DNA of 64,000 nucleotides, from contig CM028325.1 in assembly GCA_016647705.1 (NCBI GenBank), positions 32,592,474-32,656,473 of the forward strand. The letters are read 5' to 3'. Source of the stretch: Eucommia ulmoides. Lineage: Eukaryota; Streptophyta; Magnoliopsida; Garryales; Eucommiaceae. Under the pieces are notes generated by a model that searched no databases, had not been told where the DNA came from, and was given only the letters and a program-made list of their open reading frames with translations. A program made the position numbers and the translations under genes. Below are positions 4,545-38,403 of the stretch, piece by piece (the first letter of the stretch is position 1; the number at the start of each line of letters is the position of its first letter).

Positions 4545-4675
4545 CATCTGGACTGTGCCAGACAGGTGAAACAACGCTCCGCTGGACTAAGCCAGAAGGG
4601 TGAAATAACGCTCCGCTGGACCAAGCCAGACGGGTGAAACAATGCTCCGCTGGACCAAGCCAAACAGGTGAAAAT
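4545..4675. repeat. 34-bp tandem repeat inside the solo LTR
   Basis: About four copies of a 34-bp unit containing CGCTCCGCTGGAC and AGCCAGACGGGTGAAA. The first copy is more diverged. The array makes a repetitive but meaningless translation in one frame. Confidence 0.7.
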
Positions 4676-9500: not shown

Positions 9501-10916
9501 ATTCTCACCACCATAAGCAATATCCATTTTGTATCTAAAAACATTAAGAAAGAAAAAAATTATTATTTAGTTATGTTGGATGTGTTTATATAATGACATC
9601 ACTAACTAAACATATAAAATTAGCTTTTTAACATTCAGAGACTAACTAAATTAAAAAATCATAAATCAAAATCATATAAAGATCATAAATCAAAAATCAA
9701 ATTGATAGACTAAATCAAAATCACTCTAATCTAAATTCAGATTCACATACGAATCAAATTAGAGTGAATCTGAATAGAATTCACATACAAATTAATACAC
9801 ATATCAATCAGAATTGAATCTGATCACTACTGTGTCCAATTAGCCATCTAATCCAATTCATATGAATATAAAAAACTAGTAAGCAGGGATGAGATAACAA
9901 CAAATCGCAAGCATAGATGAGAGAATAGACAACATAACCATAGAAGTAAGCGATTAGACAGCATAAACTTACAGAATTACAGAAGCAATCGGAAATAATT
10001 GGTCGATAATTAATCACACAAAATAAACATAGAAACATGGATGAGAAACAACAAATCGCAAACAGGGATGAGAGAACATACAGAACTAGGGCTCGAATCG
10101 TCAATCTGGTACAGCGAAGTAACGAACTACGGCTCAAATCGTCGATCTGGTACAACAAAGTAGCAAACTAAGCTCAAATCGTACTCGTTGTCTACGATCT
10201 AGTAAGCAAATCACAAGCATAGATGAGAGAACAAATAGCAATCACACGGAATAATCAATCAGACAAAATAAACATACAAGTTGGGATGAGAGAACAACAA
10301 ATCACAAGCAGGTGTGAGAGAACATACAGAACTAGGCCTCGAATCGTCGATCTGGTACAGTGAAGTAGCGAACGAAGGCTCAAATCGTCATCGTCATCAT
10401 CATCATCATCGTCGTTTTCGATCTGGTAAGCAAACTAGCTAAGGCCCAAATCGTCGTCGTCTTCGTCGTCGGGTTGGAATACAGTGAAGAAGTAGGGTTC
10501 GAAAGTTGAAAACTTGAAATCGGTATGGAACTCCAACTCCAAGAAGTAACAAATCCACATTTGTAGGCTACAAACCTACAAATATGGAAATTGAAGATCA
10601 AATTTAGAAATTGGAAGAAATCGGGAGGGAAAGAAGGAAAAAGAAGGTCGTCGTATTGGAGAGGAATGGCTGTGAAGTGTGAAGCAGTGTCGTGACTCGT
10701 GAGCAAGCAAATAGAGAGAAACCTAGGGTTTTCAAGAGATGCATCGGATCGAATCGGGTGTACCCGGGCATCAAATAAGTATACCCGTTTTCGAACCGGG
10801 TAGTCCGGGTTTCCCAAATTCACAACTGCTGTTGAGTTAACTTAGCGGGTTGTGGGCGAGTTCAGGCCATTTCGAGCGGGGTCGGGTCGGGTCAGCAGGT
10901 TTTTTGAACACCCCTA
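6542..10916 (-). mobile_element. hAT-family (Ac-like) DNA transposon, 4.4 kb
   Basis: Left end TAGGACTGTTTATAGG and right end (reverse complement) TAGGGGTGTTCAAAAA form short imperfect terminal inverted repeats. The flanking 8 bp are CCCATTGC (6534-6541) and TCCACTGC (10917-10924), a target duplication with two differences. Subterminal DNA is full of GGGTCGGGT/CGGGTAC-type motifs (6660-6720 and 10740-10900), as in Ac-like hATs. The interior holds a decayed transposase on the minus strand. The rest, including 9530-10740, is AT-rich with repeated blocks such as GATGAGAGAACA and CTCGAATCGTC and no further gene. Confidence 0.85.
7412..9527 (-). pseudogene. hAT transposase, zinc-finger BED type, disabled
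   Basis: Starts at ATG 9527. A BED zinc finger comes first (about residues 35-95, with CNHCGETY then H..HIEFQC). The RNase-H-like core follows: LTVDKASSNNG, a form of the hAT TVDNASxN motif with Asn changed to Lys, and RCCAHILNLVVCEGL, typical of plant hAT transposases. A DPxYKL stretch with DUF4413 character lies at 7804-8034. Past 7760 the hATC dimerisation domain is readable: PVSTVASESAFSTGG and LSAKMVEALICTQNWL. It is broken by in-frame stops near 9018, 8930, 8469 and 8440, a stop near 7800, and at least one frame change between 8085 and 8034. It cannot make an active transposase. Confidence 0.85.
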
Positions 10917-17480: not shown

Positions 17481-18141
17481 TAAGAGCATGGAGATGTTAA
17501 AATTTGGTGTACCATTTGCCCAAATGGCACAACAACAAAAAAAACACTCCAAAGAATGTGCTATTTGGGTGTGCCATTTTTTTTAATTAAAAAATAAAAT
17601 TAACAAATTAATTTAATTGATTTTTGGGATTTTAATTTAACCGCTAAATATTAACTTTTAGTGTGTTATTTTTTTATTAAAATTAAAAATTAAAAAAAAA
17701 TTGTTTGTTGATTTTGAAACCGACAAATTTCATTATTTTTTTTTTCAAACTAAAGCGTTAAAATAAAATTTATATTTTAATTTAACCACCAAATAATAAT
17801 TTTTGATTTTAAATTAAAACGCTAAAATTAAAATTTTTAATTTTAATTTAACCGCCAAATCTAAAATAAATTAAAATTAACCAATTAAACCCAAATAAAC
17901 ATAGCATACTTAATTAAATCTTATGTAAATTTAATAAAATCCTGATTCAATCATAATTAAACCTAATTAACCCTAAATTTACAATAATCCAACCACTAAT
18001 TATAACTCAATCCCCCTAATTACAAATCCAACACCCCCCAATTACAAATTGAGTTTTTTTATTAAATAGTCCCTTATAGAGAGTTCTGTTAGACTATAAA
18101 CCTTTTTACAAGACCGTTTAGGGCTCAGACCTCCCCGTACG

Positions 18142-18444
18142 ATGGGTTTAAATTTCAGTCCTCCGACGAAGACAAGGCGAACGGCGATGGACGATAATAC
18201 CCCTGTTCACTCCGACGAGCCAGGTGGACGAATCAATTCGGTTATGGTAAGCGACAAAATAGAGTTTTTCATTTTGCTGATTCAAATACATGTACGACAT
18301 CCATTACACAGGCGCGGATTTTAAAAAACATTCGATTCAAATTTGTAGGAGTTGCAGAACGGGTACGAGGTGAAGGTTTTGAAACGGCGGCGACGGCGAC
18401 TATATCACGAGACGGCGTTTGGATTGTGTCTAAAGACGAAACAG
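18142..18444 (+). CDS. Possible small basic protein exons or 5' exons of the transposase gene
   Basis: The first exon-like block starts at ATG 18142 (MGLNFSPPTKTRRTAMDD...) and ends at a good donor, ATG/GTAAGC (about 18246). A second block follows an acceptor TTTGTAG (about 18348), reads ELQNGYEVKVLKRRRRRLYH and more, and ends at CAG/GTCAGT (about 18444). The five-arginine run suggests a nucleic-acid-binding or nuclear-targeting tail. It could be upstream exons of the transposase transcript, or a separate small gene of the element, since VANDALs carry an extra gene, vanB. No homology is recognised. Confidence 0.35.
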
Positions 18445-18486
18445 GTCAGTTACTCGATTGTATTCATTGAAAAGTTATATAGTCGT

Positions 18487-18900
18487 GTTTAATATCGTTT
18501 TTGGGTTTTTTGGAGTTGTTACAACGTTTTTCGAAGTTGGATGTTCGAGGTTGGCGATGAACGAACACCCATTTGTGAAGGATGTACGCTCTTGAGGTAA
18601 CGTGAGCAGCACGTTAACGTTAATGTACTGGGTTTGTATTTTGTGCATCACGACGTAATAACAATGTCAATATAACAAACACAGTCAGGGTGTTTAATAT
18701 CGTTTTTTGGATTTTTCGTCGGTGTTACAACGTTTTTCGAAGTTGGATGTTCGAGGGGTGGCGATGAATGATTGCCCATTTGTGAGGAATGTACGCTATG
18801 AGATAACGTGAGCAATGCATTAACGTTAACGTACTTTGTGGTTATTTTTGTGTATGACGACGTAATAACAATGTGGATACAAGCAAACACAGTCAGAAAA
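18487..18900. repeat. About 200-bp tandem repeat carrying the palindrome
   Basis: Two copies of a unit containing GTGTTTAATATCGTTTTT, AACGTTTTTCGAAGTTGG, ATGTTCGAGG and CGACGTAATAACAATGT. Each includes one copy of the palindrome variant (18611-18626 and 18817-18832). Tandem units with the motif at a fixed place show that local duplication has multiplied the motif. Confidence 0.8.
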
Positions 18901-19045
18901 TGGGTGTACATGGTAAAGTTAAATAACTCACAATTTTTCAGCTTTTTTCTAAAAAGTAAGATGCTCCAAGATACAGAGGTTCTCTAGGTTGTACGCAACG
19001 AAACGCCTTAACGTTAACATGTTTTAACTGTAACTTTTTTTTTTT

Positions 19046-19061
19046 GCGTTAACGTTAACGC
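19046..19061. promoter_or_regulatory. Representative perfect copy of the GCGTTAACGTTAACGC palindrome
   Basis: The 16-bp sequence equals its own reverse complement and contains two HpaI-type GTTAAC cores and three CpG sites. Other perfect copies: 19178, 22381, 25978, 26005, 26060, 27286 and 28320 (start positions). It is a candidate binding site for a protein encoded by the element. That role is inference. Confidence 0.6.
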
Positions 19062-19538
19062 AATCAGTAGTGCTGGATTGTGTTAACGTTAACGCAATAA
19101 GTAATGCATTTAACGGTAATGCATTAAGTTAATACATCAACGGTGACGTTTCACAATGGTCAAACCACAAACTGATTGCGTTAACGTTAACGCAATCAAG
19201 TCCATTTCGTTAATATTTACGCAATAAGTATAAGCGCTCAACTAGAACAATTTTGGGGATGCATTTTTTTTGATTTCGCACGTTATGCGTTAACGGTTAC
19301 GCAATTAATATAAGTGCTGGACCAGAGTAACGCAGCGTTAACGTTAATGTAACCCCTATTTTTTTACAAGTCAATTTGATTACGTTAACATTTACGCAAT
19401 TAGTAGTAAGCGCGCTTACAGACCAATAAGCATACTGAAATCTAAATCCCCTCGATGCCCATTAATGTTTGTCTACTGTTTTTTTCTTGCACAATGGGTT
19501 TGCATCCGTTTGATCTTGTAGATTTACTAGGGGGGTCA

Positions 19539-21957
19539 ATGGCTACGCGCATATTTTTGATGTGCAAGTTTGATGGTTACTCGTTGGGCGTTAAGGTGGA
19601 TGATGATTTCACGCAAGCGGTGCTGATTCAAAATGTGTTGTCGCGATGGGTCGTGTTGAGGGATGTTTCGTTCGAGATGTTCTATTCCATACCAGGACAT
19701 GACAGGTGCCTAATATCGTGTCAGGATGACGTAGAGGTAATGGTTAGCCTTGCACGAGCAATAAAGCTTGAATATGTTGGGGTGGAGATAAAGGTGTGCG
19801 GCAGCGGTAGTGGACCAAGTGGTAGTCGGGACAAGATGTTATTTGAATATCCAACGGGACAGGGGGGGTGGGATGGCATGGACGGGGAGGACGACCTGTT
19901 GTCCGTTTTCTGCCCATTGCATAAAAAGGCATTATTGTCCGATCATTGGGCTGAAGGTCCTAAAGAAGCCAGGCAGATTTTTAAGGGTGGAATACCGGAA
20001 TTTAGAGAATCACTAAGGAAATATGCTGTACAAATGGGTTTCACATTTCAGTACATAAAGAACGACAAGAAGAGGGTGATAGCTGAATGTTCACTCAAGG
20101 AGGAGAGGGAATGTAAATGGAGAGTGCATGGCAGGCTAGACGAAAGGAATGAGTTTTTTTATATTTGGGAGTTCCAGAGAAATCATAGTTGCTGCGGTGC
20201 TGTTTATAGGACAGCGAGGAATGGGAAGATGAACTGTAGCGTTGTGAAGTCATGTCTTTTAGACTTAGTTCGAAATAACCCGTTAACTCGCCCAATTGAC
20301 GTTGTTCACACGTTCAAGAACGACTATGGGATTGAGATCCCATATCACATTGTATGGAACGGCGTGGAAAAAGCTCGGGATGATTTGTACGGCGACCACA
20401 AATCGTCTTATGATCAATTGCGCTGGTACTTGGATGCATGCAGTCAGACGAACCCAGGCAGCCACATGGCGTTGGATTATGATAAAGAAACTGGGCATTT
20501 CAAGAGACTGTTTGTATCGTTCTATGCGACTGCGCACGGGTTCAAATTCTGCAAGCCGATGCTGTTTCTAGACGGGACATTTCTGGGGGGTAGGTACAAG
20601 GGGTGTTTGTTGGCGGCCAGCGCAAAGGATGAAAACAATGGTAAATTGGTTGACTACTTATTACATAAACGCAATTACACCTATCATTTACACATTACAT
20701 GCAATTAACGCTTTTTTTTTTTACATTTTTTTCGAACAGTTTGTGTGAGAGGGGGGGGTTTCTGATGAGACAAACTGATCATGTTTGGGGATGAGACATG
20801 GAAATTTTTGCAACGTTAACGTTAAATGCGTTAACGTTAACGTATTTTTAAAACGGCTGTGTATACAATGTTTTGTTCATAGCGTACTGATCTGTGTTTG
20901 TGTTTTTCGTAAATGGACAAGTCTTTTCCCAGTTGCATTCGTTGTTGTTGATGCGGAGAACGATGACAACTGGTATTGGTTCATGACTAATTTAGAAAAA
21001 ATTGTGGTGAAAGAACGTGTGCTAACCTTCATTTCTGATCGACATAGTGGCATTCTTGAAGAGGTCCAGAAGATGTTCCCGCATTGTTTTCATTCTTATT
21101 GCTTGAACCACCTGAAGAACAATCTGAGGGACAAATTGGCGGGTTTGAAACAAGCGTGGAAGGAGAAGCTCGTGCACAAATATTCTATGATGGCATATGC
21201 GACGACGCTTGACAAATACTACCAGCTGAGGGAAGAATTAAGAACAGAAGGTATGGGACGAGTAGAGAATTTCCTAGAGGATGTGCCGCCAGACAACTTC
21301 TGCAACATGTTTTTCAAAGGCAAAAGATATGGGGAGATGTCGTCCAACCTAGCGGAGTCATTCAACGCATGGATTTGTGATTACCGGCACCTGCCGATCA
21401 TATTAATGGTCGACAAGATTAGGTGCAAGGTAATGAACCAGTTGTCAGTGAGACGTGCCGAATCACTGCTGATGACGGGTTTCCTATGCCCAGTACGCGA
21501 TAAAATGCTGTTGCGGATGATAAGCGACGGGCGGACATGGAATGTTGTTGAGTGCGGCAACAACGTATACGAAGTGCACTCGATCCCATCCGTTCTGGTT
21601 GATGTGGATAAAAAAAAGTGCTCCTGCTTCGGGTGGCAGGGAAATGGGTTCCCGTGTGTTCATGCTTGTGCGGCGATACAAAAAAGCGGCCAGAATATAC
21701 ATTCATCCATTGAGTCGTTTTTCTTGGTGGAATATTACCGAATGACCTACTCGGAAGGTATATATGGTGTACCCATGTTCGAGAAACCGGAATGGAATGC
21801 ATCGGAAGCTGTAATTATCCCGCCGATCACAAAAAAACAACCTGGTCGACCGCGGAAGAAACGCATCCCATCAAAGGGTGAGATCCCAAAAATAAGATGT
21901 GGTAGATGCAAAAAGAATGGGCACCACAACAGGAAGACATGCACTGCTTCAATTTAA
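19539..21957 (+). CDS. Mutator-like (MURA/VANA-type) transposase
   Basis: The start is set at ATG 19539; an in-frame ATG at 19494 is possible. Exon 1 runs to about 20640. The intron starts GTAAATTGG and ends around 20930; it holds two palindrome copies (20813, 20828). Exon 2 runs to TAA at 21955-21957. In order: a PB1-like N-terminal region, the MuDR DNA-binding domain (about residues 149-217, with ECKWRVHGRL and NHSC), the MULE catalytic domain with LDGTFLGGRYKGCLL (first Asp), FISDRHSGI (second Asp) and HSYCLNHLKNN, then NLAESFNAW. A SWIM zinc finger (CSCFGWQGNGFPCVHAC) and a CCHC knuckle (CGRCKKNGHHNRKTC) follow. No stop or frameshift was seen inside the exons, so it may be functional. The exact 3' splice site of the intron is unsettled. 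Confidence 0.88.
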
Positions 21958-23233
21958 AGCACAGAGTAATCAAATATTTCCTTTTATGTAGTTTTGACAC
22001 AGCAACACTTTATGTGTTTAATGTCAGGGGGGGGTGGAACCATATTTTTTTTCATATGATGTTTTTGTTTTGCGTAAACAGGTAATAAACACACACAATT
22101 TTTTTTTGTATTAACGTAAACGCAATTACGATTCGCACATTTTAATGTTCAACGCTTTTCATAATTCTTTTGTATAAAATTAATCGCGTCAACGTTAACG
22201 CATTTACAACCAAAAAAGCTCAAAATAACTAATCGCGTAAATATTAACGCATTTTTCATTACAAACCAGCATTAGTAAGATACAACTACGTTAACGTTAA
22301 CGTGAACGAAAATTACAGCAGGGAAGTAAGTAATTGCGTTAACGTTAACACAGTAAGGAAACCATCACATGTAAGTAATTGCGTTAACGTTAACGCATTA
22401 AGGAAACCATCACATGTAACTTTATTGCGTTAACGTCACGGCAAATACTACCCAGTAACAAAGTCAAAGGCAACGCAATTAAGGTCATTTCGTTAACGGT
22501 AACACATTTTTTTAATAAATATTGTTCCACCAGACAAACAAACTAACCAAATCTGAACATTAACTAATCTAGATTGCATTTGTTCTTGCATTAACGTTAA
22601 CGCAGTAAGAAAATCATCACATGTAACTTTATTGCGTTAAAGTCACAGCAAAAACAATCCAGTAACAAAGTCAAAGGCAACGCAATTAAGGTTATTTCGT
22701 CAACGGTAACACATTTTTTTTAATAAAAATTGTTCCACCAGACCAACAAACTAACCAAAACTGAACATTAACCAATATAGTTAACGTTAACGCAGTTTTT
22801 AAAAGTCCAGAATAAAACAATTTCAATTTATGAGTTAACGTTAACATGCAACAAAGTACAAATTGGATTAAAGTTAACTGATTAACAAAACCAGCCATTT
22901 AACATACTTGCGTTAACGTTAACACAACTAAAACCCAGCAACAAAAGACAAAGCAACGCAATTAAGGTCATTTGCGTTAACGGTAACACATTTTTTAGTA
23001 AAAATTGTTCAACTAGACCAACAAACTAAACCAAATCTAGACATTAACTAAGCCCATTAACGTTAACGCGTTTGGTCACAGCCAGCACATGTAAAATTAC
23101 AAATTGCGTTAACAATTAACACAATTACAAACCCCACACACGCACCAACAATCGTAAAAAATGAATAAATCAGTGGGATATATATATTTTCTCAGATTTT
23201 TGTTTTGTGTCATTGATAAACTCCACCCATAGG
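21958..23233. repeat. Intergenic palindrome array between the convergent MULE genes
   Basis: Holds the densest set of palindrome copies. Three diverged units of about 160-200 bp (starting near 22381, 22588 and 22910) repeat the order palindrome, CATCACATGTAACTTTATTG, AAGTCAAAGGCAACGCAATT, CGTTAACGGTAACACATTTT, and ATTGTTCCACCAGACAAACA. There is no coding sequence. It lies just past the stop codons of both element genes. Confidence 0.85.
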
Positions 23234-25869
23234 TCAGGGGGTGACCTCATCTGGTTGGGTTGTTTCAACATCGGCGCCCACCACGGGCACCCAACTATAG
23301 TGCGGATGGTTGAGTAGAGCGTGTATTACGTCTCTCCGGACACCCCGTACATCCGCCACCGACAGTTTTTTCGCGACGGGCATATTTGCAGCATATTGTT
23401 TCATGATGTACATAACAAAAACGCCACAATCAGTCCTGCAAACCCGGGGGGGGGAGGGGGGGGGAAGGTAAACAGATGAGAATGATATATTTGCAAATAC
23501 ATACGACTTTTTAGTACACATGTTTCGGACGGGTGAACTTACACCCCGCGTTGTTGTGGCGAATCGACACATTGTTCGATACGTGCGTCACCCCAATCTG
23601 GACGTATTTCCATGTTGATATGTCATTCCACAAACCTTTTTTGTTCAGAATTTAGGTTAGTCAAAACAAAACAGAGTGTAGTTAGAGACAATCAAAGTAG
23701 TCACATGTTAAATCACATACCACCGTAAGCGGATCATTATAATAATGATCGGTCGTGTTCTTCCTAGGCCGGATGGAATTTTAGAACGTCCATTTTTTAT
23801 CGTGTATGTCCAGCACCATTACAGTCCAGTGATTGGGTGACGCATGTCGACCATGAGTGTTCATCGGGAACACAACATAACGGGTTTCTTTGCTGAATGC
23901 ACTGGAGATTGTGTAGTACAGTTCTTTCAGCAGCACATTGTTGTCCTCCCTTATAACATTCTATGATTATTTTTTTACGTGTTAGCAAGTTTGGATGAAA
24001 AAGGAAAAAAAGCTAACATGTGCTAAAGTGTCTTACCCAAATGCATGATAGCGCAAACCACGTTTCGTGCAACAGCACGATTGACGTGGATATTCACACG
24101 CGATTGATTGATCTAATTTGGTCTTCCAAACACTCTCCATACGAATCAATCACCTGTGAGTAAAGGGAGGGGGAAAGACAGACACGTTAACGTTAACGCA
24201 AATTTTGTTAACACAGGCACATTTTTTACGAAACAAGTTGATTTAATCAGTTAATCAAGTCAATCACAAACACTATGCAGTCGGTTTCATACGTTATCCG
24301 ACACACGTCACTCCATAATCATGCAAATGATGTCGCCACATGAAACCGTGGCCATGGGTTTCCCACCTCCAAACACGAATGTACTGGGACATTGTCAAAA
24401 ACAACATATCACATGATCATCAAACATTTTATGGAAAAAGGAATTTCAAAAGTAAAAAGGCACTTTGAGTAATTTTTTATTTTTTACCCTAGCCCCTCTT
24501 TGGAAATCACAGACAACTTCTCCCAATCGTTGTCAACAAGCATCGCACCAACGGTCGTCGAATCACGAGCTGGGAGTACTGCATTGTCTTCATACATTGT
24601 TGCCGGGTGGAGCTCATCGACATTAACTATGTCAGCTCTCTCTTTCTGCTTCCATTTCCCTTTTGCTTTGGGGTAGACAAAATCACTGTCTTGTTTCTTC
24701 AGTTGCCTCTCCTTTTTCTTTACTCGACCAACTATGGAGCTAACTTTTTGCGTTGCCCCCTCATGCGACGTAGGTATAGGGACTGGCGACGGCGCATCGG
24801 GGGTGTCGGTTGGCATGACCATAGAGAGCGGTTGAGGTTCTTGAGGTTCGCGGACTGCGAGAGTGGTAGGGGTACCCCTACCCCCGTTTGCATATGGGCG
24901 TTCAATTTCGTCTGGAGGTCCTGTATTTGTTTATTCAGCGCCACACGCATTTTTACGTCTGATTTAGCTATCTCCTTCTTCTCTTGCCTCAGTAGGTTGT
25001 TGATTTCTTGTTCTGCTTTCAAGTCAAGAGCAAGATCATTATATTTCTTCTTCATTTCCCCAGCAGCATCAGCATGTTGCTGATTCAACGTTTCGATTGT
25101 GTTTTTAAGTGTTTCCACCTCCCGGGCGAGCTCGTCACATCTCCGCCTAAGGTCATCTTTTTCTGTATCGACGGCGGGCTCTTTATACTTCTGAGTCACG
25201 TCGTGCACGCTCATTTCCGTCAGGATGTCTCTCTTCTCCCCAATTGATTTCGCTAATCTCGCAGAGAGATTAGAGACAAAACGCTCATAACTTTCTTTTT
25301 CTTGCAACGACGATGCTTTCAGATGATCAATCTCCTTTTTCTGCTCGACGTTGGTAGCGGTTATGATTGCAATCACCCTATGCAACGCTGCAATGGTCTG
25401 CTCTTTTTCTATTTTATTCGCAACGAATTCACCCTGCATGTGTTCGATCTGTCTGCGTATGTCATCAACTGTACCTGCGGACACAGACGGTGGCCCCAAG
25501 GCACCCGCTGAAGGTGTGCAAAATGCACTCTCAGCGGGGGCAGAATCATCACCCAAATCGGTTGCGGCTTGAGTTGGGACGGGAGAAGGATGATATATGA
25601 GGGGTGTGAGATACCGCCCTATGATGTCGTCAACCATTGCATCATAGTCATCATCATCAGCAGCGTCTGTATCTCCGCCCTCATTGCCCGGGCTATCGTT
25701 AATTGAGTCATTATTATCCTCTTTCAAAGCAATCCCCATTTGAAGCTCTGTTAAAGTCTCATCAGCGGGCTGATCTTTCACCTGGCATATGTGCAAGCAT
25801 TAACGTTAACCAGCCACACACACACACACACCCACACCCAAAACAACTAACCGATTGTGTTTACATTAA

Positions 25870-26185
25870 AGTTAAATTGCTTGCGTTAACGTTAAACATA
25901 AGCACAAACACCAACAAATAAGTTCGCTAATGCTAACGCAAATAACAATACAACCACAACATCTGCTTTTTGTTATTGCGTTAACGTTAACGCACTTATT
26001 ATTTGCGTTAACGTTAACGCAAATATTTATATACTTAACATTAACGCATATAAATAATTGCGTTAACGTTAACGCAAATACTAAGTGCGTTAACGTTAAC
26101 ACTAACGCAATAACACTCTAACCATACATAACTTAGTTTGCTTTAATGTTTAACGCAACAACTAATTGCGTTAATCATAACGCAA
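25870..26185. repeat. Dense palindrome cluster in an intron of the Ulp1-type gene
   Basis: Three perfect copies (25978, 26005, 26060) and several variants (25883, 26087, 26167) fall within about 300 bp, some separated by fewer than 15 bases. This is the tightest packing in the window. Confidence 0.9.
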
Positions 26186-27223
26186 AATACCACATACTAT
26201 GTTTTACGTACCTGCATCAACGTTAAAATCACAACATGTTTTTTTTTTTTACCTTATCAGCTGGCAGTAAACCGAGGGGAATGCCTCCCAAGTTGGAAGA
26301 AAACGTGGTGAGGCACCACAGCTCCAAACGCGGCACACTATGCTCCCTACCCTCGGTGTGGTCAACCAACGTTGTGTGCTCGCACAACCAATACTATAAG
26401 TAAAATTTGTAATATGTCAAGCACGGTTCACAAACAACGCTTGTAAATATTTGGAAAACGTTTTCACAATGGGTATGTGTATACCTGGAGAGCAAGCACG
26501 CACCCCGTGACCGACCGGGGTTCCATGTACGATTTCTTGAGGCTGGTTTCGAGATCTGTAAATATTGCAGCTGTCCAGTTGTAATTTGCCATGTCTTCAA
26601 TTGTTTCAACATAGCGAACCAATGATTTCTGGACCTGCTGCCCAGTTGTCGCAAAGAAGCACGTGGTCATCAGGTGTAGAATAACCATGCGGACAACATC
26701 CTGCACTGTTTCATTGTCCGTGGCGTTGACATTCACTTGCACTTGTGATCTCAAATAAGCAACACTAAACCCACGGTCTGCGAATGTCAGTCTGGACATG
26801 AAAGGGGAGTCGGATTTTGTGTAACGACTCAAAACAATGGGTTCTTCGCCCATTGATATCCCGAATATCAGCTGGATGTCAAGCAGGGTTATCCGGATGA
26901 GCCTGCCCCCTATCCTAAACCCCCCCCTAATGCAGGGTTGTAGTATCGGATGATCGTTTCAATGAGATCATCATTTTTGTGGACGTTTTCGAGCGTCACT
27001 CGCTGCTCATATAATGTCTCGAATATTTTTGCGAAGGGGGTCCGGGCCAGCAGTGTCTTATGCTGATCGTTGAGTTTGCACTCTTTCAGCAATTCATAGG
27101 TCTGCTTAAGGTTGGAGCGATAAAGGAACGTCCGCTGGCTCGAGCTTTTCTTTTTCGGTTTCTTTAGGAGTTTTACTGCAAGAACGACGGAGGGAAACAC
27201 AATTAATGCACATTACAAGCCAC

Positions 27224-27815
27224 ACGTTAACGTTAAAGCAGTTATCCATATCCCTCGTTACGTAACAAAAATTGGTAACTATTTTGCGTTAACGTTAACG
27301 CACAAACAATAAATGCGTTAACGTTAACGTGTTTTTTTCAAAAACACAAAATTTCGCACCAAAATGATCCCCACCCTTTTTACAGGCAAAACGTCTATGT
27401 GCGTTAACATTAACGCATTTACATCCATGCGTTAATGTTAACGCAAGACACAGCACATAGTGCTGCACCAGACAGACAAACAAACAAACATAAATCTAAA
27501 CACACAGACTCAAATTAATGTTAACGTTAAAGCAGTCATCCATATCACTCGGTACGTAACAAAAACAGGCAACTACTCTGCTTCAACGTTAACGCACCAC
27601 AATAAATGCGTTAATGTATACGCATTTTTCTCAACAAACCAGAACGTCGTCCCAGATTTGAGAAAAATACCGACGAGTAACGCAAAAGGGGCCCCCCTTT
27701 TTTACAGGCAAATGTCTATTTACGTTAACATTAACGCAATCGAAGTACATAGTGGTGTACCAGACAAACAAACAAACCTAAATCTAAACATACGACTCAC
27801 ATTAATGTTAACGTT
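27224..27815. repeat. About 290-bp tandem repeat with palindromes in intron 1 of the Ulp1-type gene
   Basis: Two copies (27224-27510 and 27519-27815). Each contains AAAGCAGT.ATCCATATC, a GTTACGTAAC or GGTACGTAAC element, TTTTTTACAGGCAAA, a CATAGTG block and CAGACAAACAAACAAACATA. Each holds four or five palindrome copies, which drift at CpG positions. Confidence 0.85.
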
Positions 27816-28484
27816 AACGCAAGCATTCTTTTTAAATTCCTTCTTTTCGGAGGCAAAACAACATGTGGGTCAACATCGCAAAACAACGAAACAAAACACG
27901 ACGTACAATTTCAAAAAAAAAAGTAAACAGGGGAATAGAGCATGTCGGAGTCGGGTAAAATAGACGAACATCATCGTCTCGCTTTGTGATTTTCATTTCT
28001 AAAACGTCGTCGCCTAACAAAATTGTATCGATTTTAGGATTTCACATACCGTCGGGACTGAGGATTGCTCGTTTCTGTGTGGAAGACGAGAGGGCGCGTT
28101 CAAAATTCTCCATTATCTGAAGACGATGGGGCGATTTTGGATTATTAGTTTTAGGATTTTAGGGTTTCGGAGTTTTTAAGCGAAGAGAGGATAGAGAGCC
28201 TGGGAGAGAATAGAGAGCGTTTTGACGGTTTTTTTGTATGCGATCGTGCAGATAGTGGAACGTGTAACAGAACATATCGGAATCAGAACAGACACAGTAA
28301 CACACCGACTGCTAACCGTGCGTTAACGTTAACGCAATCCGCTACTGTTAACACACAAAAAAAAAAAAAAAAAAAAACCATTGCAAAGATATCGACGAGC
28401 TCTTTAATTTGATCACATTTTTATATGAGTTGATTCAGAAATCAGGTATATAGAAGCGGATTACGTATTGGGGGATTTTTTTTT

Positions 28485-28507
28485 AGTGCCCTGTTCATGT
28501 TGTAGTG
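28485..28507. mobile_element. Isolated CACTA-like terminus
   Basis: AGTGCCCTGTTCATGTTGTAGTG, reverse complemented, begins CACTACAACA and contains GGGCACT, like the end at 12484. The following 3 bp are TTT. No matching left end preceded by TTT was found, so only a terminus is claimed. Confidence 0.3.
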
Positions 28508-29273
28508 TTTGTATCCTCAGAATGGCATGTTGCGTAAATAAACTGTAAAAGGAAGGACAAAATAGAAAGATTTTTTCCTAAAGAATTGAGGTGATCTGAA
28601 AACTTAATTCACATTGTACTAGGGTCTAAATTGTGAAGTGTCCTCTAACAGAGGACTAAAAAATAAAATTCCCTTACAAATTCGCCCCTCCCCTAATTTT
28701 AATCCTACATACCCCTTCAATTCCCAACCCTAAATCCAACATTTGCCCCCAAATTTATCGGATGGAAAGAGAGAGATGTGGAGCGACGGGTGGTTAGGGT
28801 TTAGCGACAGTGACAAGCGGCGACAACGAGATCTAGTAGCGTTTGGCGACGGGCGACTGCGACACAACGGCGAGGCGATGTTTGGCGTTCGGCGACTGTG
28901 ACTGCGTTCGCTAACTGAATTCGGCGACTGTGTCCAGCAATTTCTGGCAAGAAACAACGAGGTAACTCTTTGATTTCATGATCATTGATCTTTAATGGTC
29001 ATTTTGGCTCTTCTTCAACCTGTGCCATATTTGGCGCAGGGAGACCAGGTGTGCCATCTTAGCACACCAGATGGCACAGCCGTTACCATTGGAGATGCTC
29101 TAACGATCAAAACAAAACCAACCCGTGTACAAATACATACCCAAAAAAAAAAATATATATATATATATATATATTCAAGATTATACAAAGAAGTTGGTTG
29201 CTTCATTTACTATCTACACTCCCCGTAAGATTTCAACATCCAGTTCTTTTTCTAACATATTGATATCACGCCC
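28508..29273. other. Repeat-derived intergenic DNA right of the MULE
   Basis: Includes a GGCGAC-rich block (about 28770-28940) with frames that are compositional, the right end of the PIF-like element (to 29100) and a poly-A/(AT)n tract at 29143-29174. No gene recognised. The LRK10L gene ends just beyond. Confidence 0.5.
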
Positions 29274-32200
29274 TTAATTATCACCAACAGCCATTGATTC
29301 CAGTAAAAGCGGCGGCAACGAATTACTCTTCAGAAGCGCAACATCGTCATCCAAAATATCTACAACATCGAATTCTTGATCATTCACCTTTTCATTCTGA
29401 ATCCCTCTCAGACCCGCCGCCACCTCTTCCATGGACGGCCTCATATCCTTCTCCGGTTGCAGACACCGGAAAGCCAACTCCGCCACTGCAGTCACTGTCC
29501 GCCGAACCCAATCATCAGTTCCAAACCCGAGTTTTGGATCCACTAACTCGTGAAGCCCGTGATTCTGAATCTTGTTGATCGCCATGTTGGAGAGATTAAT
29601 CTCATGCCGGTGCCGGTTCGTATCGACTGCCGGCAACGAAGATACAAGCTCGATCAAGAAAACACCAAAGCTATAGACGTCACTCTTCTCGGTAAGCTGA
29701 TAGCACCGGTAATACTCTGGATCGACGTATCCCGGCGTCCCCTGCGGTGCCGTCGAGACGTGGGTGACGTCAGTCGGAAACAATCTTGACAGCCCAAAAT
29801 CGGCGACTTTGACGTGAAAATCGTTGTCTAAAAGGATATTGTTGGTTTTCACGTCACGGTGGATGATGTCGGATGCATGGAGGTAAGAGAGTGCGCCGGC
29901 GGTTTCGATGGCAATGTTGAGCCTGACTGGCCAGGAAAGCAAGCCGGAGTTTGAGAGCTTTCCGTGGACGTGGTCGGCAACGGTGCCATTGGGGATGAAT
30001 TCGTAGACTAGGAGAAGCTCATGGCTTCGTTTGGAGGTGCAACCAAACAGGGCGACAAGGTTTCGGTGACGTAAACGGGTTAGAATCTCGATTTCGTTCA
30101 TAAACTGTTCCTTGCGCTTAAAGTTATTCTCGTATAGCCGCTTCACTGCAACTACTCGACCATCATTAAGCTTGCCTGATCAAGAGGACAAGGTCGTGTT
30201 TGTTTTACTTTAGTAAAACGAAATATGAGGGAAAAAAAACTGTTCCTGTGATGTTCCTATATTTTTAGAATAAATTTTTCGGAGCAGAACAAAATTATTC
30301 CTAAACCTCTGTTGCTATTCAAAATTTTCAGAGAACAAAAACAAAAATATGGGAAACGCAATATATACATGTCTGTTTTGTGTTTCCGTTCTAAATCTTT
30401 TTATTGTGTTCCCTATAACACTTGGAACAAAAACAAAATAAAAAATTATGTTCCTATTGTCTCCACAATTTTTTTTCTTCTAAAATATAGGGAAGGAACA
30501 GAAACAATGTGTTTTTGTTCCAGCATTTCAGTTTCAATTCTCAATTTTCAGAGATACAGAAATAAGGAACAAATACCACCTTATATTTTTATCCCAACAT
30601 TTTGGTTTTTATTCTCAGAAAACTGGAAATATAAACAAAAATATGAGAGCAAAAATATATATTTATGTTCTGTTCCAAGAAAGTTAGAACAAATTTCTGG
30701 GAATACTTGCAGAAATCTAAGAACAAGAAGCCTACACAAACGCAACTAATTAAAGTGTTTTGTGTCCTGTTCATAGTTCTAGAGTTTTTGTTTATGCTCC
30801 TATAATACTTGAAACAGAAAAAGAAATCAACAGAAATTTGTTCCAACAATCTAGAAGCAAACCTAAACATAAGTAGTCCTTTTTTAAGTTCCCACATTTT
30901 GGTTTCTTTTCCCAGTATTCTAAGAACAGAAACACTAAAGCCCGGTTTGTTAAAGTGTTTCAGTTCCCATTTTTCAGTTTCTATTCCTATTTTCTCTATG
31001 GAAAAAATTATGATCCCAAATTTTCAAGACAAGTTTTGAGCAAAATATAATTGTTCCCTGATTTCTATTATAGTCCGATGTTTTATAGGGTAATCTGGCA
31101 AAAGAAATCCTAAACAAACGCCACCTAAGATCCGTTTCTGTCCCTAAAAAACATGAAACAAAAATAGAAGTTTGGGAATAATTCTGCTCTGCTCCTTTAA
31201 ATTTGTTCTTTAAAAAAAACAAGAGCACAAAACATAAAAATAGAGTTAAGATCATCTTCTTACCATAGTAAACAGTGCCAAAGCCACCATCTCCAAGCTC
31301 CCTAGAAGAATCGAAATTATCTGTAGCTTCTTCGAGCTCAGCGTAGCTGAAGACGGGAACACCATAGTAAGTACTGTTCCCAAACTCAGATTTGGAGGAA
31401 GCATAAGAAGGGATACTCCTGTTGAAATGGATGAAAGAGGAAGAAGAAGAAGAAGAAAGGCCTTTGCTTGAAGCGGCCGCTGGCGGCGGCGGTGGTGGAG
31501 TTTGAACATCTTTAGTCCCTGTTTGGCCAGCAGACCGCCGTTTTCTGCGTTGTCTGTAAAAGAAGATTAACCATCCTATTCCAACCCCAGCAAACACAGC
31601 TCCTCCCAATCCAAAAGCTGCCCAAAAAACAAACACATTTAAATTAATGATACGGGCAAGAATGATTTGATTTTGTCTGGAAAAACAATGTTGAAAAAAA
31701 CATACCTAGACCAAGTGATATTTGGTTGTTGTTGCCAGAGCCTGCAAAAATTATGAATTAAAAAAATTGTTTTATTAGATCATGATGCTGGTAAAATTTA
31801 CCAGATAAATTCTTGCATTAAAGCCCAATGATGAATGCCAAAATGGACTTAAATGAATATAACCCATATCATATAAGAGCGATGAGTAAGTAATTACTAA
31901 TTCAGGCTGAGAAACTACGACCTATAATAACCAGTCAACCAGGATTAATTTAAATTATTCCCCAAATATTATTCTCCCAAATTCAGGAGATATTATTTTC
32001 CCTAAATCCAAGAAATATCATTCTCTCCAATCTCTCTAAATCGCGAAGATATCATTTTCCCCAAATCGTGAGAAGTCAGTTATTTTCTTACTCTATAAAT
32101 ACAATCATCTACATGTCACATTTGTAGTCAATTCATTCTATGGTTATGATTTTACTCAATGCTTGATTAATTTATTTTCACGTCGGAGGGTATTTAGCTG

Positions 32201-35200
32201 ATATCACACCGGTATCCTAAGTCCCTCTTCACCCCCATCTACCTCTTCTTCATCCCATTCTTCACACTCATGTCATCATCCCATGATCACCAGATCCAAA
32301 CTTGGTATTGTTATACCTAATCCTAAATTTGCTAATCTAGCACCAATTGTTCCAGATTGTGAAGTTGAACCAACCACATATGGTGTTGCTGCCAAATATC
32401 CCCATTGGCAAGAGGCCATGCTTACAGAATATACTGCTCTTATAAATCAAGATACATGGTCTCTGGTTCCACCTCCTCCGAACAGAGAACCTATAGGATG
32501 CAAGTGGACATTCAAAATAAAACGGGGGGGCTAATGGCTCTATAGTCCGATATAAAGCAAGATTGGTCGCCAAGGGCCTTCACCAACAGCAAGGCTTGGA
32601 TTACTCGGAAACTTTCAGCCCAATCGCTAAGCATCCTACTATCAAAGTTCTCATCTCTATTGCTCTGCATAATCAGTGGGACATCAAACAATTAGATGTC
32701 TCCAATGCTTTCCTCCACGACAATCTTGAAGAGGAGGTCTACATGTGTCAACCTTAGGGATTCGTTGATTCTCAACATCCGAACTATGTGAGCAAGTTAC
32801 ACAAATCTCTTTATGGCCTCAAACAGGCACCTAAGGCTTGGTTTTCTCTCCTCACATCCTATCTAACCAACCAAGATTTCGTCATCAGCAAGGCAAACAC
32901 CTCCCTATTTGTCAGAAACAGCAACCCGGGTATTATTATGGTTCTTGTCTATGTGGATGATATTCTCGTCATAGACACTAATCCTTCCGAAATCAATTCT
33001 CTCATTCAAACAATGCGTAATACCTTTGCCATGAAAGACTTGGGAACAGTCTCATATTTTCTAGGCCTAGAAGTTCAATACAATACTTCTGGTCTTCTTC
33101 TCCACCAGAGCAAATACTGCAATGAGCTTCTCACCAAAACTGTAATGACTAATTGCAAATTATCTCCCGCTCCTACATCGCCCTTTTCATGATCACTCCT
33201 ATGAGAATGTAACCTATTTCCGAAGCATCGTTGGAGCTCTCCAATATCTCACCATTACCAGGTCAGACATTACATTTGCTGTGAATTCCGTTTGTCAATT
33301 CAAGCACCAACCCTGCAACAAACACTTCAGTACAGTGAAAAGGATCCTCAGATACCTCAAAGGTACTCCCAACCATGGCATCCAATTTTCTCCTAGCCCT
33401 TTTACACTCAGTGCCTATTCTGATTCTGACTGGGCAGGAAATCAGATAGATCGGCGTTCTACAAGTGGCTACTGCACATTCTTAGGCTCCAATCTTATAT
33501 CCTGGTCATCCAAGAAACAACCTACTGTCTCACAGTCTTCCACTGAAGAAGAGTATAGAGCAATGGCTTCCACTGCATCTGAACTCACTTGGCTCACTTA
33601 TCTCCTACAGGATCTTCACGTTCCTGCTCAGGCTCCTCCTATCATGTGGTGTGATAACCAATCTGCTGTCTCTCTTGCTGCCAATCCAATATTTCATGCT
33701 CGTACTAAACACATTGAAGTGGACTATCAGTATATCCATGAAAAAGTTCTAGCAAAACACATTGAGCTTCAATATGTTTGTTCCAATGATCAATTGGTTG
33801 AAATTTTTACTAAGTCCCTGCCTACCAATCACTTTCTGTTCCTGCGCACCAAGCTCACCATCGGTAATCCTATGATGAGCTTGTGGGGCGATGATAACAA
33901 TCAAGACCTCAGCTCAGTCACACCAATTCAGATTAGTACACCAGCTCAAGTCAGCACACCAGCTCAGATCAATTCCGCTGAGCTCAACTCAGTTCTGCTC
34001 AATATCCATGGAGTGCAATGTGCATGTGTATGGGCTGATGGTTAGGTGCCTAAAACAGAATCCTCAATAGAAGATAGTTTGTTATAGTTTGTTAGGCATC
34101 TTCTAGATTCATTCTGTTAGAGTTTGTTACAGGTAGCCTATATATATATTGATCTTGTGTATTGTTGAAAGGTGAAGAAGAAAGATAATAAAGAAATGAT
34201 CACTTTGTACATCAGCTTCCCTTCTATCGTCTTTCTTCTACATTTAATTTTAGAATTTCAACACTTATCCTAAGTGCTGCATGTGTTAATCAGGTTTTGG
34301 GAGACGGGGTCGCTGACCAAATCGAGCAGCATCAGATCATATGTTACTTTCTGCTATTTTAATTATTTTTGGAATTTATGTTCCAATAAAACTTGGAACA
34401 AAAACATAATCTACATAAACAAACAACAAGTCTGGAAAGAACACTCCCTATTTGGTTACCTGCAGGAGGAGGAGGAGGAGGAGAGGGTGGCAAAGGACAG
34501 AGTCGATCACCACAAATGCAAATAGGTTGACGCGAATCTGAATCAAACCCACATTGCCCACCAAATTGGGTACATTGCGAGCATTGATTAGCAAATGGGT
34601 TACTGTAATTCAAGTTAAAGCCTTCCATTAGAGCATTTTCGAGCGTCGTGCGATTGACGGACAGCATTTCGGCGGCAGTCCTAAGTACCGGAACTCTAAC
34701 GGCGACCGTACAATAGATGAATCCCAGTATCGGGTCGCTCGGAACCTCCCCGAGCAAATAATAGGCGTTGCTGAAATTGAAAATGCGAGAATTGCAAGTG
34801 AAGAGATTCTGCGGCCGGACAGTCATGCCGGAGGCGTTACAACCGTAGATCAAATTGAGGTCTTGGTTTCCAATTCCGGGGTTGAAAACGGATAAATCGA
34901 GGGTGGTGTTGAGGAATTGGGCGGGGCAAGTGTTGTTCCAGAGATCTAACCTAGCTACGACCATGGTTCGTCGGATTTGATCGATACCGAGAACTCGGTA
35001 CGTCGTGGAGTCGGTGGTGAGCTCGGTGTGGTTGTTCCGGCACTGGAGCCGGAAATCGGGAGGACCACAGTGGTCGGGCCGGTCCCCGCCGGTGAACGGA
35101 TAGGAGATGTCGCGGAGGGAGCCGCATGAGAAGGTGCGGTCGCAGATAGCGTAAGTGACGTCTTGAGAAAACGGCGTCGGAAGAAGGCAGGCGAAGAGGG

Positions 35201-35261
35201 TGATGACGGCGGTGACGGCCGGAGAGAGGAGGAAGTAAGAGGAGGGGAAAGAGAGAGGCAT
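29274..35261 (-). CDS. LRK10L: LRK10L-type (WAK-like) receptor protein kinase
   Basis: Four exons: 34460-35261, 31706-31741, 31264-31617 and 29274-30175, all with GT-AG borders. They join into 698 codons with no stop before TAA, giving 697 residues. In order: a signal peptide from ATG 35261 ([12 protein letters not shown]...); a GUB_WAK_bind domain ([21 protein letters not shown]); a WAK-associated Cys-rich end ([19 protein letters not shown]); a proline hinge; a membrane helix ([15 protein letters not shown]) with a basic stop; and a kinase with [33 protein letters not shown] and [11 protein letters not shown]. All catalytic residues are present. It should act as a cell-surface Ser/Thr kinase; LRK10L members are linked to wall sensing, defence and ABA response. 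Intron 1 carries about 2.4 kb of retrotransposon DNA, intron 2 repeat DNA. ATG 35261 was chosen over an earlier in-frame start because the signal peptide follows it directly. Confidence 0.9.
30185..31130. repeat. MITE-like insertion in intron 2 of the LRK10L gene
   Basis: The left side has GGTCGTGTTTGTTTTAC. The right side, reverse complemented, has GGTGGCGTTTGTTTAGG, giving weak inverted ends. In between, runs such as GGAACAGAAACAAA and TTTTCAGTTTCTATTC recur in both orientations. No clear target duplication. No coding. Confidence 0.4.
31880..32215 (+). mobile_element. LTR fragment in intron 1 of the LRK10L gene
   Basis: Has the layout of the Tat-type LTR at 40783: repeated ATTATTTTCCCTAAAT-like blocks, a TATA-like CTCTATAAATA (about 32092) and TCACGTCGGAGGGTATTTAG (compare TCACGTTGGAGGGACTTTAC at 41232). 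No second LTR or internal region accompanies it. The family assignment rests on this layout only. Confidence 0.4.
32228..34045 (+). pseudogene. Ty1/Copia polyprotein, reverse transcriptase and RNase H part, disabled
   Basis: Starts near the linker before RT (MITRSKLGI at 32283), then WQEAMLTEY and [11 protein letters not shown] continues with [30 protein letters not shown], the active site LVYVDDILV (about 32942) and YFLGLEV. RNase H has [32 protein letters not shown] and [18 protein letters not shown]. Gag, protease and integrase are absent, so the copy is 5'-truncated. A frame change sits at a G8 run near 32524, a stop (TAG) at 32755-32757 and another frame change between 33190 and 33240. 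It lies inside intron 1 of the LRK10L gene, in antisense orientation to it. Confidence 0.88.
34062..34262 (+). mobile_element. Copia 3' LTR-like end
   Basis: Just after the pol stop: TTTGTTATAGTTTGTTAGG and TGTTAGAGTTTGTTACAGG, a TATA-like TATATATATATTG, and an end in CTTTCTTCTACA or AATTTCAACA. This is the usual look of short Copia LTRs. No 5' partner is present, so its limits are uncertain. Confidence 0.5.
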
Positions 35262-35411
35262 TTCGGAGACGGCGCCGGAGAGTGAGGGAGGGAGAATGGG
35301 GATTCGCCATTTGGGAATTGAAAAAGAACAGAGCTTTTGGGGTTGGTTTGGTTCGTTGAACGTTGAAGATTGGAAGCTGCCTTTGATTGACTGTTTTAGA
35401 CTGATCAACAA

Positions 35412-36759
35412 TATATTTAAATTTAAAAAAAGACTAAATTACATTTAGCACCCCTGAAATAATAATCAGTGAGAGGCCACACAAAAGAGTTTGGGCCAGC
35501 TAATAAACGCACGAGGAGTTCCATCTGAGATTCGACGGCGACATTCAGTACTACTACACTCGAGCCAGCCAGAGGTTGGACATCTTGGGACGACAGTCTG
35601 AGAATTGTTATTTTACCATCCCGAGCATGATTACAGACCTTGAAACATGCTCCGTTTCTTCTATTCAATAACCGTTACAGTGACCCTCTACATATTGAAA
35701 GAACGGTCACAATTTTGAAATAACGTCTATTACCTCATGTCCCACCAAATCCGCAACATTAACACAATTGACTAACATTCATGAAAGACTTGTCAAACAA
35801 ATTTTTCATCTCTTATAAATATTACAAGAAAGAGTCAAATTAATTTCGGATACTTTTCCTACCTAATAAATATTTTATTAAATTATTGATTTGGATAGAC
35901 TCACTATGAATATTTCAATTTTTAGCATCATTATCATATTATGAATATTCATAATATAAGTCCAAGTCAATGCATTATATTTATACATATTGAAAAAGTC
36001 CAAGCTTGCAAATCGATTCCACAGTCAATGATAGAAACCATTCATCACCTGTTTTTTTAACCTAACTTGCGATGCCCGTTTCTGTAACAATTTTAAAATA
36101 ATTATTTGGTTTCACATCTAAATTTATATGCAAAATATAAAGACAATTATGTTGATTTTAATAATTAAATTTAAATTATAATTTTAACGATTAAAGTGAC
36201 GGTTAAAATTTGAAAAAAAAATTAATTGCATAACTTTATAATGACCATTTTTTTTTTTAATATTTAATTAATCAAAAATATTTTGCAAATATAATACAAA
36301 TAGTGGGTGTGTCATTTCTAGCGGAAGAGATGTTGGAATTCCAAAATTGTATTAAGATGACAAAATAATTAATTATATATATTGGTTTTAAAATAAGGTG
36401 TGTTTAGGTTAATTTACGTATACTTTGACTATCACCTTCCTGGACAATCTTAAGGACGTTCTTTTGCAGATCGGCTTGGTACATTTATAATTAAATTCAA
36501 GATTTATTTCTCAGATTGCTACGCCAAGAGAGTGGAACCCTATTAGACAAAAAAAGTGACACCTTTTTTTAGCCAAACTAACACCTCTTGGATAATTAAT
36601 TATATATTATACCACACTTAATGTAACACATCCTCATAACAGTATTGAATATCAATAAAAAACAAATTCACTTTTATATTTTATTAAAATCATTTTATCT
36701 TACTTACTTTTATATTGTATTCACATTAAAAAAATGTGAAAAATCAAATCTAGTTATTA
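35412..36759. other. Spacer between the two LRK10L ectodomain exons
   Basis: AT-rich, with long A/T runs and no recognised gene. It includes the upstream (promoter) side of the LRK10L gene; no clear TATA box or other site could be set with confidence. An 81-codon minus frame at 35423-35668 has no recognisable homology. Confidence 0.45.
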
Positions 36760-36769
36760 ATATTAATAA

Positions 36770-36936
36770 AGGATTTGATGTTAGGTTGAGTGGAAATGCC
36801 TTCACCTCCCACACTTGTGGTGAGGAGATCGATTCTCCTCCCACTCAAATATAGGTGTGGGATTTCACTCCTATCCTATTAAAGGTGTGTGTTGGGTGCG
36901 TGAGTACAAAAACGTATATTCTGGAAAAAAAAAATG
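36770..36936 (+). mobile_element. tRNA-derived SINE
   Basis: Pol III-like A box (TTAGGTTGAGTGGAAATG) and B box (GGAGATCGATTCTCC) are followed by a short A-rich tail. Perfect 10-bp target duplications ATATTAATAA flank it at 36760-36769 and 36937-36946. Length 167 bp, normal for plant SINEs. The duplications are undamaged, so the insertion is fairly recent. Confidence 0.85.
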
Positions 36937-37171
36937 ATATTAATAATGGTAGATAAAAAAATAAAAAATTTAATTGTATGTTTATTAAGAAAAAGGTAGT
37001 CATTATGACACATCGAAGCCTCTATGTTTTATATAATAGCAAAATAATATTAAAAAATAAATTTCAAAGGTAATGGCTAATGAAATAGAAAAGTTATCTA
37101 AATTCTTGTATAAAATCCTAAATTTATTACTGTTTTAAAATTTATCTCACCTAGTCTATTTTGTGGAAGAT

Positions 37172-37984: not shown

Positions 37985-38403
37985 GTTTTTTGGAGAGAGA
38001 GAGATGTGAAAATTCAGAATAAAATTTTGTCATTTGAAGATATTCAATGGAAAATTTTGATAAATTAGTCTGTTTTTGTCATCAAATCAACATCATATGA
38101 CAGGAAAAAATATGAAATTTTGACAAAAGTGAACCATCATGCCTAGATTTTCAAAGTAGAAGCTTCTGTTGAAATAGGGAAAAAAATGATTTTGACTTGA
38201 TTTAAATGTTCAATGCAATATAAAACTATAGCGAATTATTAAAACTTGAATAATATAATGCTTAAACGATTCCTATTTACTTAAAAAATTATAATATATA
38301 TTTGAAAACAGTATTAAATTCAAATATATTTTAGCAAAAAATTATATATCTCTCGAAAGTAGAGGTTATTTTTCAATCCATATTTTAGTGTTGTATTTAC
38401 TAG

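Follow-up and report, generated by a model that had tools for sequence, protein, structure and literature searches.

Family-specific palindromic motifs in the non-coding DNA of a Eucommia ulmoides MULE suggest a VANDAL-like anti-silencing system

Why should one palindromic word recur throughout the non-coding DNA of a single transposable element? The question is raised by a 64,000 bp stretch of Eucommia ulmoides DNA (GCA_016647705.1, contig CM028325.1, positions 32,592,474–32,656,473; here called the window, with coordinates counted from its first base), which contains a Mutator-like element (MULE). The perfect 16-mer GCGTTAACGTTAACGC occurs eight times in the window, always within this MULE, and its 10-mer core TTAACGTTAA is present 30 times between 18614 and 28332 and absent from the remaining 53 kb; dinucleotide shuffles give means of 0.00 and 0.10, respectively. 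An earlier sequence-only reading had reported eight perfect words and about 30 cores counted by eye, with none noticed in the other 54 kb and ~0.01 expected by chance in 10 kb, and exact counting agrees. The coordinates it had given were 18611–28335; the element is larger (18051–28673). Written out in full, the word forms a 20-bp dyad, TTGCGTTAACGTTAACGCAa, and a matrix of that length built from the element's own sites has 52 matches in the element and 0 in both flanks (53 kb). The hexamer CGTTAA/TTAACG occurs 132 times in 18501–28450 compared with nine times in the remaining 54 kb, and the top 9-mer has z = 57.4 in each half of the element, with a maximum of 13.4 over eight flanking 6-kb blocks.

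Placement, divergence and family distribution of the motif

All 30 cores lie in the 5.7 kb of non-coding DNA and none in the 4.9 kb of coding DNA, the extent of which is approximate and taken from open reading frame (ORF)-based gene models. The earlier statement that the motif fills all non-coding DNA is too strong: the ends of the window element are free of sites (558 bp at the left and 317 bp at the right), as are two short gaps in the antisense gene, of 49 and 120 bp, and a gap of 522 bp contains just one. Across four full copies, 556–558 bp separate the left end from the first site and 311–331 bp the last site from the right end, and three non-autonomous copies have no site within 184 bp of either end.

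This placement bears on the idea that the palindromes are the transposase's own sites for assembly of the transposition complex, like those found internally or subterminally in other plant elements. A MuDR-type DNA-binding domain is present in the transposase, motif density stays high in non-autonomous copies, and the transposase tree also separates the motif types described below. MURA, however, binds terminal inverted repeats, and a concentration of motifs at the element ends, as expected of MURA-type end-binding, is not found in the four full and three non-autonomous copies. The sites stay far from the ends (at least 311 bp and at least 184 bp, respectively) and are also present mid-element, in putative introns and between genes. 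We regard this explanation as unlikely.

The sites differ little between copies. With exact cores taken in turn from the window copy and from full copies E1, E2 and E3 and compared with the other copies, 2.0, 2.7, 3.0 and 1.5% of core bases differ, as against 6.8, 9.6, 6.2 and 6.6% in random non-coding 10-bp blocks (draws as low: 0, 0, 2 and 0 of 2000) and 6.3, 8.2, 6.0 and 6.1% in control blocks each with one CpG. Between copies, the divergence of aligned sites is 2–4 times lower than that of the remaining non-coding DNA, and aligned cores have also diverged less than the DNA flanking them and less than coding DNA, with the caveats that the aligner may pair neighbouring motif copies, that gene conversion is possible, and that the four copies share history. 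These values also bear on the motif as a neutral by-product of tandem duplication or slippage of a hexamer, (TTAACG)n. The word does consist of two TTAACG-type units, and the element's tandem arrays carry motifs, several sites lying within them. Three-unit runs number only 0 to 2 per full copy, however, 36 of 43 adjacent spacings of 130 bp or less lie outside tandem arrays, and the dyad is longer than the hexamer units. With three-unit runs rare and cores less diverged than flanks, we reject a simple-repeat origin, and find the by-product explanation in general very improbable.

The genome from which the window comes comprises 947 Mb in 391 contigs and contains 1433 perfect copies of GCGTTAACGTTAACGC; the reversed word and a palindrome made of the same letters rearranged both occur 0 times. 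We examined the first 50 of the 1433 places, all on contig C1 and covered by the window together with 20 further stretches, each of 10 kb. Forty-eight are within this MULE family, in autonomous or short non-autonomous copies: 42 by protein homology, and six (in L014, L015, L019 and L020) by matching ends and a 9-bp duplication, one of these duplications having one mismatch and one being mostly A. A motif equally common in unrelated repeats, which the sequence-only reading had named as one finding that would count against it, is not the pattern seen among these 50 places. Stretch L018 resembles the element in non-coding DNA only and probably belongs to the family.

A separate observation concerns L011 (G000:C1:24509501-24519500), where positions 4532–5037 contain four TTAACGTTAA sites, one of them inside a perfect 16-mer; no similarity to the MULE was found in this stretch, and it is another element or a host locus bearing the motif.

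If the palindromes were recognised by a transcription factor or chromatin protein of the host, or served the element as enhancers, the word should occur outside the family, where only one or two of the 50 places lie; nor would the motif be expected to change between sister families in one genome, as described below. Both gene starts are flanked by sites, in keeping with this explanation, and dyads of 10–20 bp are typical of dimeric regulators. On balance we think a host-factor role quite improbable.

The full-length copies E1–E3 and the window copy are 91–97% identical in pairwise comparisons. The ends carry imperfect terminal inverted repeats of ~20 bp (GAGTTTTTTTATTAAATAG at the left and GGGAATTTTATTTTTTAG at the right, read inward), and 9-bp duplications, each copy with its own, are perfect in the window copy and in three of four other joined copies (E1–E3); the right end of the fourth (L009 with L010) is not recognisable. 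Eleven further stretches include three non-autonomous copies with a perfect 9-bp duplication (that of L015 being mostly A) and a fourth with one mismatch, and no convincing duplication was found in the other seven, several of which do not have both ends. The three non-autonomous copies with perfect duplications (L014, L015 and L020) are 2.0–2.7 kb long and contain 21–23 matrix sites each, and no match to the element's proteins was found in them.

Motif variants in sister subfamilies

Of 4686 candidate transposase homologues in the genome, 105 were scored, and their identities range from 63 to 100%. We sampled the DNA immediately downstream of the transposase in twelve diverged copies. Three copies at 72–78% identity retain TTAACGTTAA, with 10, 4 and 7 copies of it; L033 (72% identity) has none and contains a run of TA repeats and CGCCTAAG words instead. 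The core was not found in any of the eight sampled copies at 63–68% identity.

Four sister elements, each examined across 10 kb, have the same gene order by tblastn matches, and three sister subfamilies, with transposases ~67% identical to that of the window family, each have their own dispersed non-coding motif. With seeded matrices there are 40 sites for TacGTgAATATCaACgT, 43 for tacGTTAACATtCAC and 44 for ATgTGAATGTTCAtAT, of which one, three and one, respectively, are in coding-homologous DNA. An unsupervised run gives 38, 40 and 41 sites in the three sisters compared with 2–11 on shuffled sequence (eight shuffles each), although the C68 consensus is slightly different. The fourth sister, C10_29, has 13 sites compared with 4–9 on shuffles, and we do not accept it as having a clear motif. 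By manual alignment all of the consensus words fit a 12-bp dyad, GTKAAYRTYMAY. The words are abundant relative to their reversals, with 951 copies of ATATGAACATTCAC in the genome versus 38 of the reverse word and 173 of CGTTAACATTCAC versus 36. This divergence of motifs between sister subfamilies of one genome goes beyond what the sequence-only reading saw, and distinct motifs on one dyad are what co-evolution of a VANC protein with its targets would predict.

A branch with 100/99 support separates copies bearing the window element's motif (W-motif copies) from the sisters in the transposase tree (six and four rows), and the same split with the same support is present in a tree of the DUF1985-like part of the antisense gene (nine and four rows). 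The part following DUF1985 diverges fastest between families, with 29–33% identity in the main matches compared with ~67% in the transposase, which would be in line with the variable regions described for VANC proteins.

The spacing of sites also has structure. In the window element and the diverged W-motif copies the preferred distances between neighbours are ~27, 45, 63, 81 and 98 bp, a step of ~17.75 bp (R 0.51 and 0.44, respectively; 0 of 1000 jitter nulls as high). Leaving out the tandem arrays reduces R in the window to 0.42, a value reached by 19 of 5000 jitter nulls. Helical phasing at 10.5 bp was considered and rejected (R 0.18 in the window element and 0.08 in the diverged W-motif copies). 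The ~17.75-bp step is best only in these two groups. Periods close to the helical one do appear in others: the best period of the non-autonomous copies is 9.75–10 bp (R 0.46, reached by 0 of 1000 nulls), that of sister C14_35 is 11.0 bp (R 0.44, 30 of 1000) and that of sister C1_16 is 11.25 bp (R 0.43, 54 of 1000). Sister C68 has a best period of 23.25 bp (R 0.48, 24 of 1000), so no single spacing rule applies to all. The sisters have a common peak at 26–29 bp (22 of 94 spacings compared with 6.6 expected, 0 of 5000 as high).

The antisense gene and a proposed anti-silencing role

The plus strand of the element encodes a MURA transposase (DBD_Tnp_Mut, MULE and SWIM domains), and the minus strand has DUF1985/PMD-like, coiled-coil-like and Ulp1-like parts. 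The sequence-only reading placed a MULE transposase and a DUF1985-like gene in the same element; the transposase is clear, and the DUF1985-like assignment is weak, its score being below the Pfam cut-off. The match has E 4.6e-4 in the window copy, 5e-6 in L037 and 0.0019 in L040, all under the cut-off of 35.1 bits, and PMD outscores DUF1985 in two of these three copies. The Ulp1 (C48)-like part, antisense to the transposase, is also below its cut-off (E 0.017) and has HW and DCG signatures. On the plus strand, we note that the second transposase ORF of the window copy is without a stop, as is one other row among the matches listed; the query starts in a probable intron.

Transposon-encoded, sequence-specific anti-silencing has been worked out in Arabidopsis according to the literature examined (PMC12312487 also belongs to this context). 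VANC proteins lower methylation through non-coding motifs that they recognise; the motifs of VANDAL21/VANC21 and VANDAL6/VANC6 are 8–9 bp long (YAGTATTAY; AGTTGTCC/AGTTGTAC), targets are often in tandem repeats, and related families use different motifs (Hosaka 2017, PMC5735166). The window element is like VANDAL21 and VANDAL6 in having a DUF1985-type gene beside a MULE transposase and a short, family-specific, repeated non-coding motif with tandem arrays, but its motif is a 16–20 bp dyad with ~50 sites per element. The earlier description of the motif as new, longer and palindromic stands beside these published motifs of 8–9 bp; 'palindrom' was not found in the main text of PMC5735166. KIU-carrying VANDALs with Ulp1-containing VANC genes are reported to recognise their own non-coding motifs (PMC13317346), and the window element resembles Kaonashi/KIU-carrying VANDALs (PMC13317346, PMC2528002) as a MULE of the non-TIR type (TIR, terminal inverted repeat) with an Ulp1-like domain antisense to mudrA; for the Ulp1-containing VANC gene, motif recognition is described in KIU-carrying relatives only, and the likeness is one of description and not of motif letters. 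MULE-Solanaceae_1 (group 42, PMC6446971) is likewise similar by description, with a 9-bp duplication, no TIR listed, a SWIM transposase, and an ORF of unknown type plus PMD in antisense, and no motif is described in the passage on it. In MuDR/MURA and Spm/TnpA, too, an element-encoded protein lowers methylation within its own family, as we propose here, but the targets are TIRs for MURA and Spm for TnpA (PMC10398659), whereas the window motif sites avoid the ends.

The palindromic motif system described here is strong, is specific to its family and is of the VANDAL/KIU kind, with dialects in the sister subfamilies that share a dyad scaffold, and the earlier view of it as the same kind of system as VANDAL/VANC appears supported by analogy of anatomy and motif behaviour. 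We infer that the DUF1985-like protein may bind the motif, dimerise and counteract silencing. The antisense DUF1985-like (and Ulp1-like) gene would encode a VANC-type protein, molecules of which, probably as a symmetric pair, would bind the dyad TTGCGTTAACGTTAACGCAA at ~50 places in introns, intergenic and subterminal DNA. Binding would remove methylation and further silencing marks from all copies that carry the word, including short non-autonomous ones, and motif and protein would change together to give altered half-sites on the same dyad in sister subfamilies. On the strength of these parallels we consider it probable that the element is a KIU/VANDAL-like MULE that acts in this way.

Several observations weigh against this interpretation. 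In the window element the C68, C1_16 and C10_29 matrices have 30, 36 and 28 matches, respectively, and the window matrix matches the four sisters 4, 14, 1 and 4 times (14 in C1_16), so at the thresholds used the motif types overlap and are not cleanly exclusive. Because both trees separate the motif types, co-divergence cannot single out the binding protein. The DUF1985, PMD and C48 scores are all under the Pfam curated cut-offs (as are DUF1985 and PMD in two sister copies), and the names therefore rest on weak scores together with gene order. DUF287, unlike in Arabidopsis VANC proteins, was not found in nine window proteins at E up to 10, with filters that drop most matches above ~0.1. The DUF1985-like gene of the window copy looks broken, with a frame change in the DUF1985 region (26910–26958) and a stop in the Ulp1-like part (23781–23964). 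The divergence values exclude gapped columns, which make up 5.6–17% for cores, 8–17% for flanks and less than 0.5% for coding DNA, and core conservation in the sister families is weak, exceeding that of other DNA in five of seven comparisons, matching it in one and falling below it in another, on a small number of sites. Finally, 47 of the 84 core changes are transitions of the central CpG, C to T or G to A (pairs counted from both sides), which suggests that the sites have been methylated at times.

The same CpG transitions would fit sites that are targets of host silencing, as a small-RNA source or a place of methylation nucleation, and not targets of an anti-silencing protein, and RNA-directed DNA methylation and VANC do act on the same non-coding regions (PMC10398659). 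The element should, however, lose such sites and not conserve and multiply them, and we hold this explanation to be extremely improbable. The CpG observed/expected ratio is 1.47 in the element's non-coding DNA, 1.08 with the motifs masked, and 0.82 and 0.78 in the window flanks; the element is not CpG-depleted, and gives no clear answer on past silencing.

Starting from the VANDAL-like interpretation, we also put forward, tentatively and as something rather less likely true than not, that DUF1985/Ulp1-type dimers read the 12-bp dyad, that its half-sites change singly (TTAAC/GTTAA, TGAAT/ATTCA, and mixed), and that the quantised ladder of spacings reflects an ordered protein array. If so, several dialects of a single recognition code coexist in one genome. 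A long palindrome that is easy to scan for, together with three sister dyad variants in the same genome, would provide matched protein/motif pairs, with which the code for target choice by DUF1985-type proteins, and how it changes, is directly testable; the motifs could also serve as compact tags with which to remove DNA methylation from chosen loci in plants. A long palindrome, a shared dyad scaffold and a ~17.75-bp step were not found in the literature examined, to which Sasaki 2022 (EMBO J, doi 10.15252/embj.2021110070) does not belong. In a literature text search for the motif letters, one or both of two strings turned up in 400 papers, and the titles of the 15 matches listed are not transposon-related, which does not imply absence from print. 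The Sasaki 2022 abstract reportedly deals with motif sequence, density, helical periodicity and non-autonomous copies; if palindromic motifs are already reported there, the present system is less new.

Features of the element and its surroundings

Table 1. Coordinates of the MULE, its coding parts and its motif clusters in the window.
Feature	Coordinates	Strand	Remarks
Left target-site duplication TTACAAATT	18042..18050		Same 9 bp at 28674-28682
Whole MULE, 10,623 bp	18051..28673		Ends set by the duplication and by comparison with full-length E1-E3
Left non-coding motif cluster, 10 matrix sites	18609..19400		Centres 18619-19390
MURA-type transposase, first long ORF	19446..20708	+	DBD_Tnp_Mut, E 2.1e-13
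Transposase second ORF, first part probably intron	20779..21957	+	MULE E 8e-11; SWIM zinc finger E 8.7e-10
Two motif sites between transposase coding parts	20805..20846		Putative intron; overlapped by listed second ORF
Intergenic motif cluster, 16 matrix sites	22106..23072		Includes 45-bp tandem array 22326-22436
Ulp1/C48 C-terminal part	23234..23587	-	Peptidase_C48 E 0.017, below cut-off; DCGVFV
Ulp1-like middle part	23781..23964	-	HWTVMVLD; one in-frame stop in window copy
Lone motif site inside antisense-gene gap	24182..24202		
Antisense-gene middle part, rapidly diverging, coiled-coil-like	24484..25799	-	Two overlapping ORFs
Motif cluster in antisense-gene putative intron, 11 matrix sites	25795..26232		Includes 27-bp tandem array 25975-26100
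DUF1985/PMD-like part	26464..26958	-	PMD E 3e-6, DUF1985 E 4.6e-4, both below cut-off
DUF1985-like protein, N-terminal part	26910..27212	-	Frame differs from next part in window copy
Right motif cluster, 10 matrix sites	27222..27823		Partly within diverged direct repeats
Rightmost two motif sites	28318..28357		~320 bp from element end
Right target-site duplication TTACAAATT	28674..28682		

Outside the MULE, receptor-kinase parts of the wall-associated/LRK10-like type (Pkinase, WAK_assoc and GUB_WAK_bind) are present on the minus strand at 29274–38029, beginning ~600 bp past the right end of the element. An ORF with a BED zinc finger (E 1.7e-6) is located on the minus strand at 9021–9566 and may derive from a hAT-like element. 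Retrotransposon remains (RT_RNaseH, Integrase_H2C2 and RVT_1) occupy 48657–49481 and 55191–55862. Near retrotransposon ORFs there is a second clustered palindrome, CGCYTAGGCG, at 44391–44540, 51217–51469 and 53954–54318, with 14 matches at one mismatch or fewer compared with 0.35 expected; CGCCTAGGC, a 9-mer of this palindrome, is also present in 10 copies in non-coding DNA of the sister element L040.

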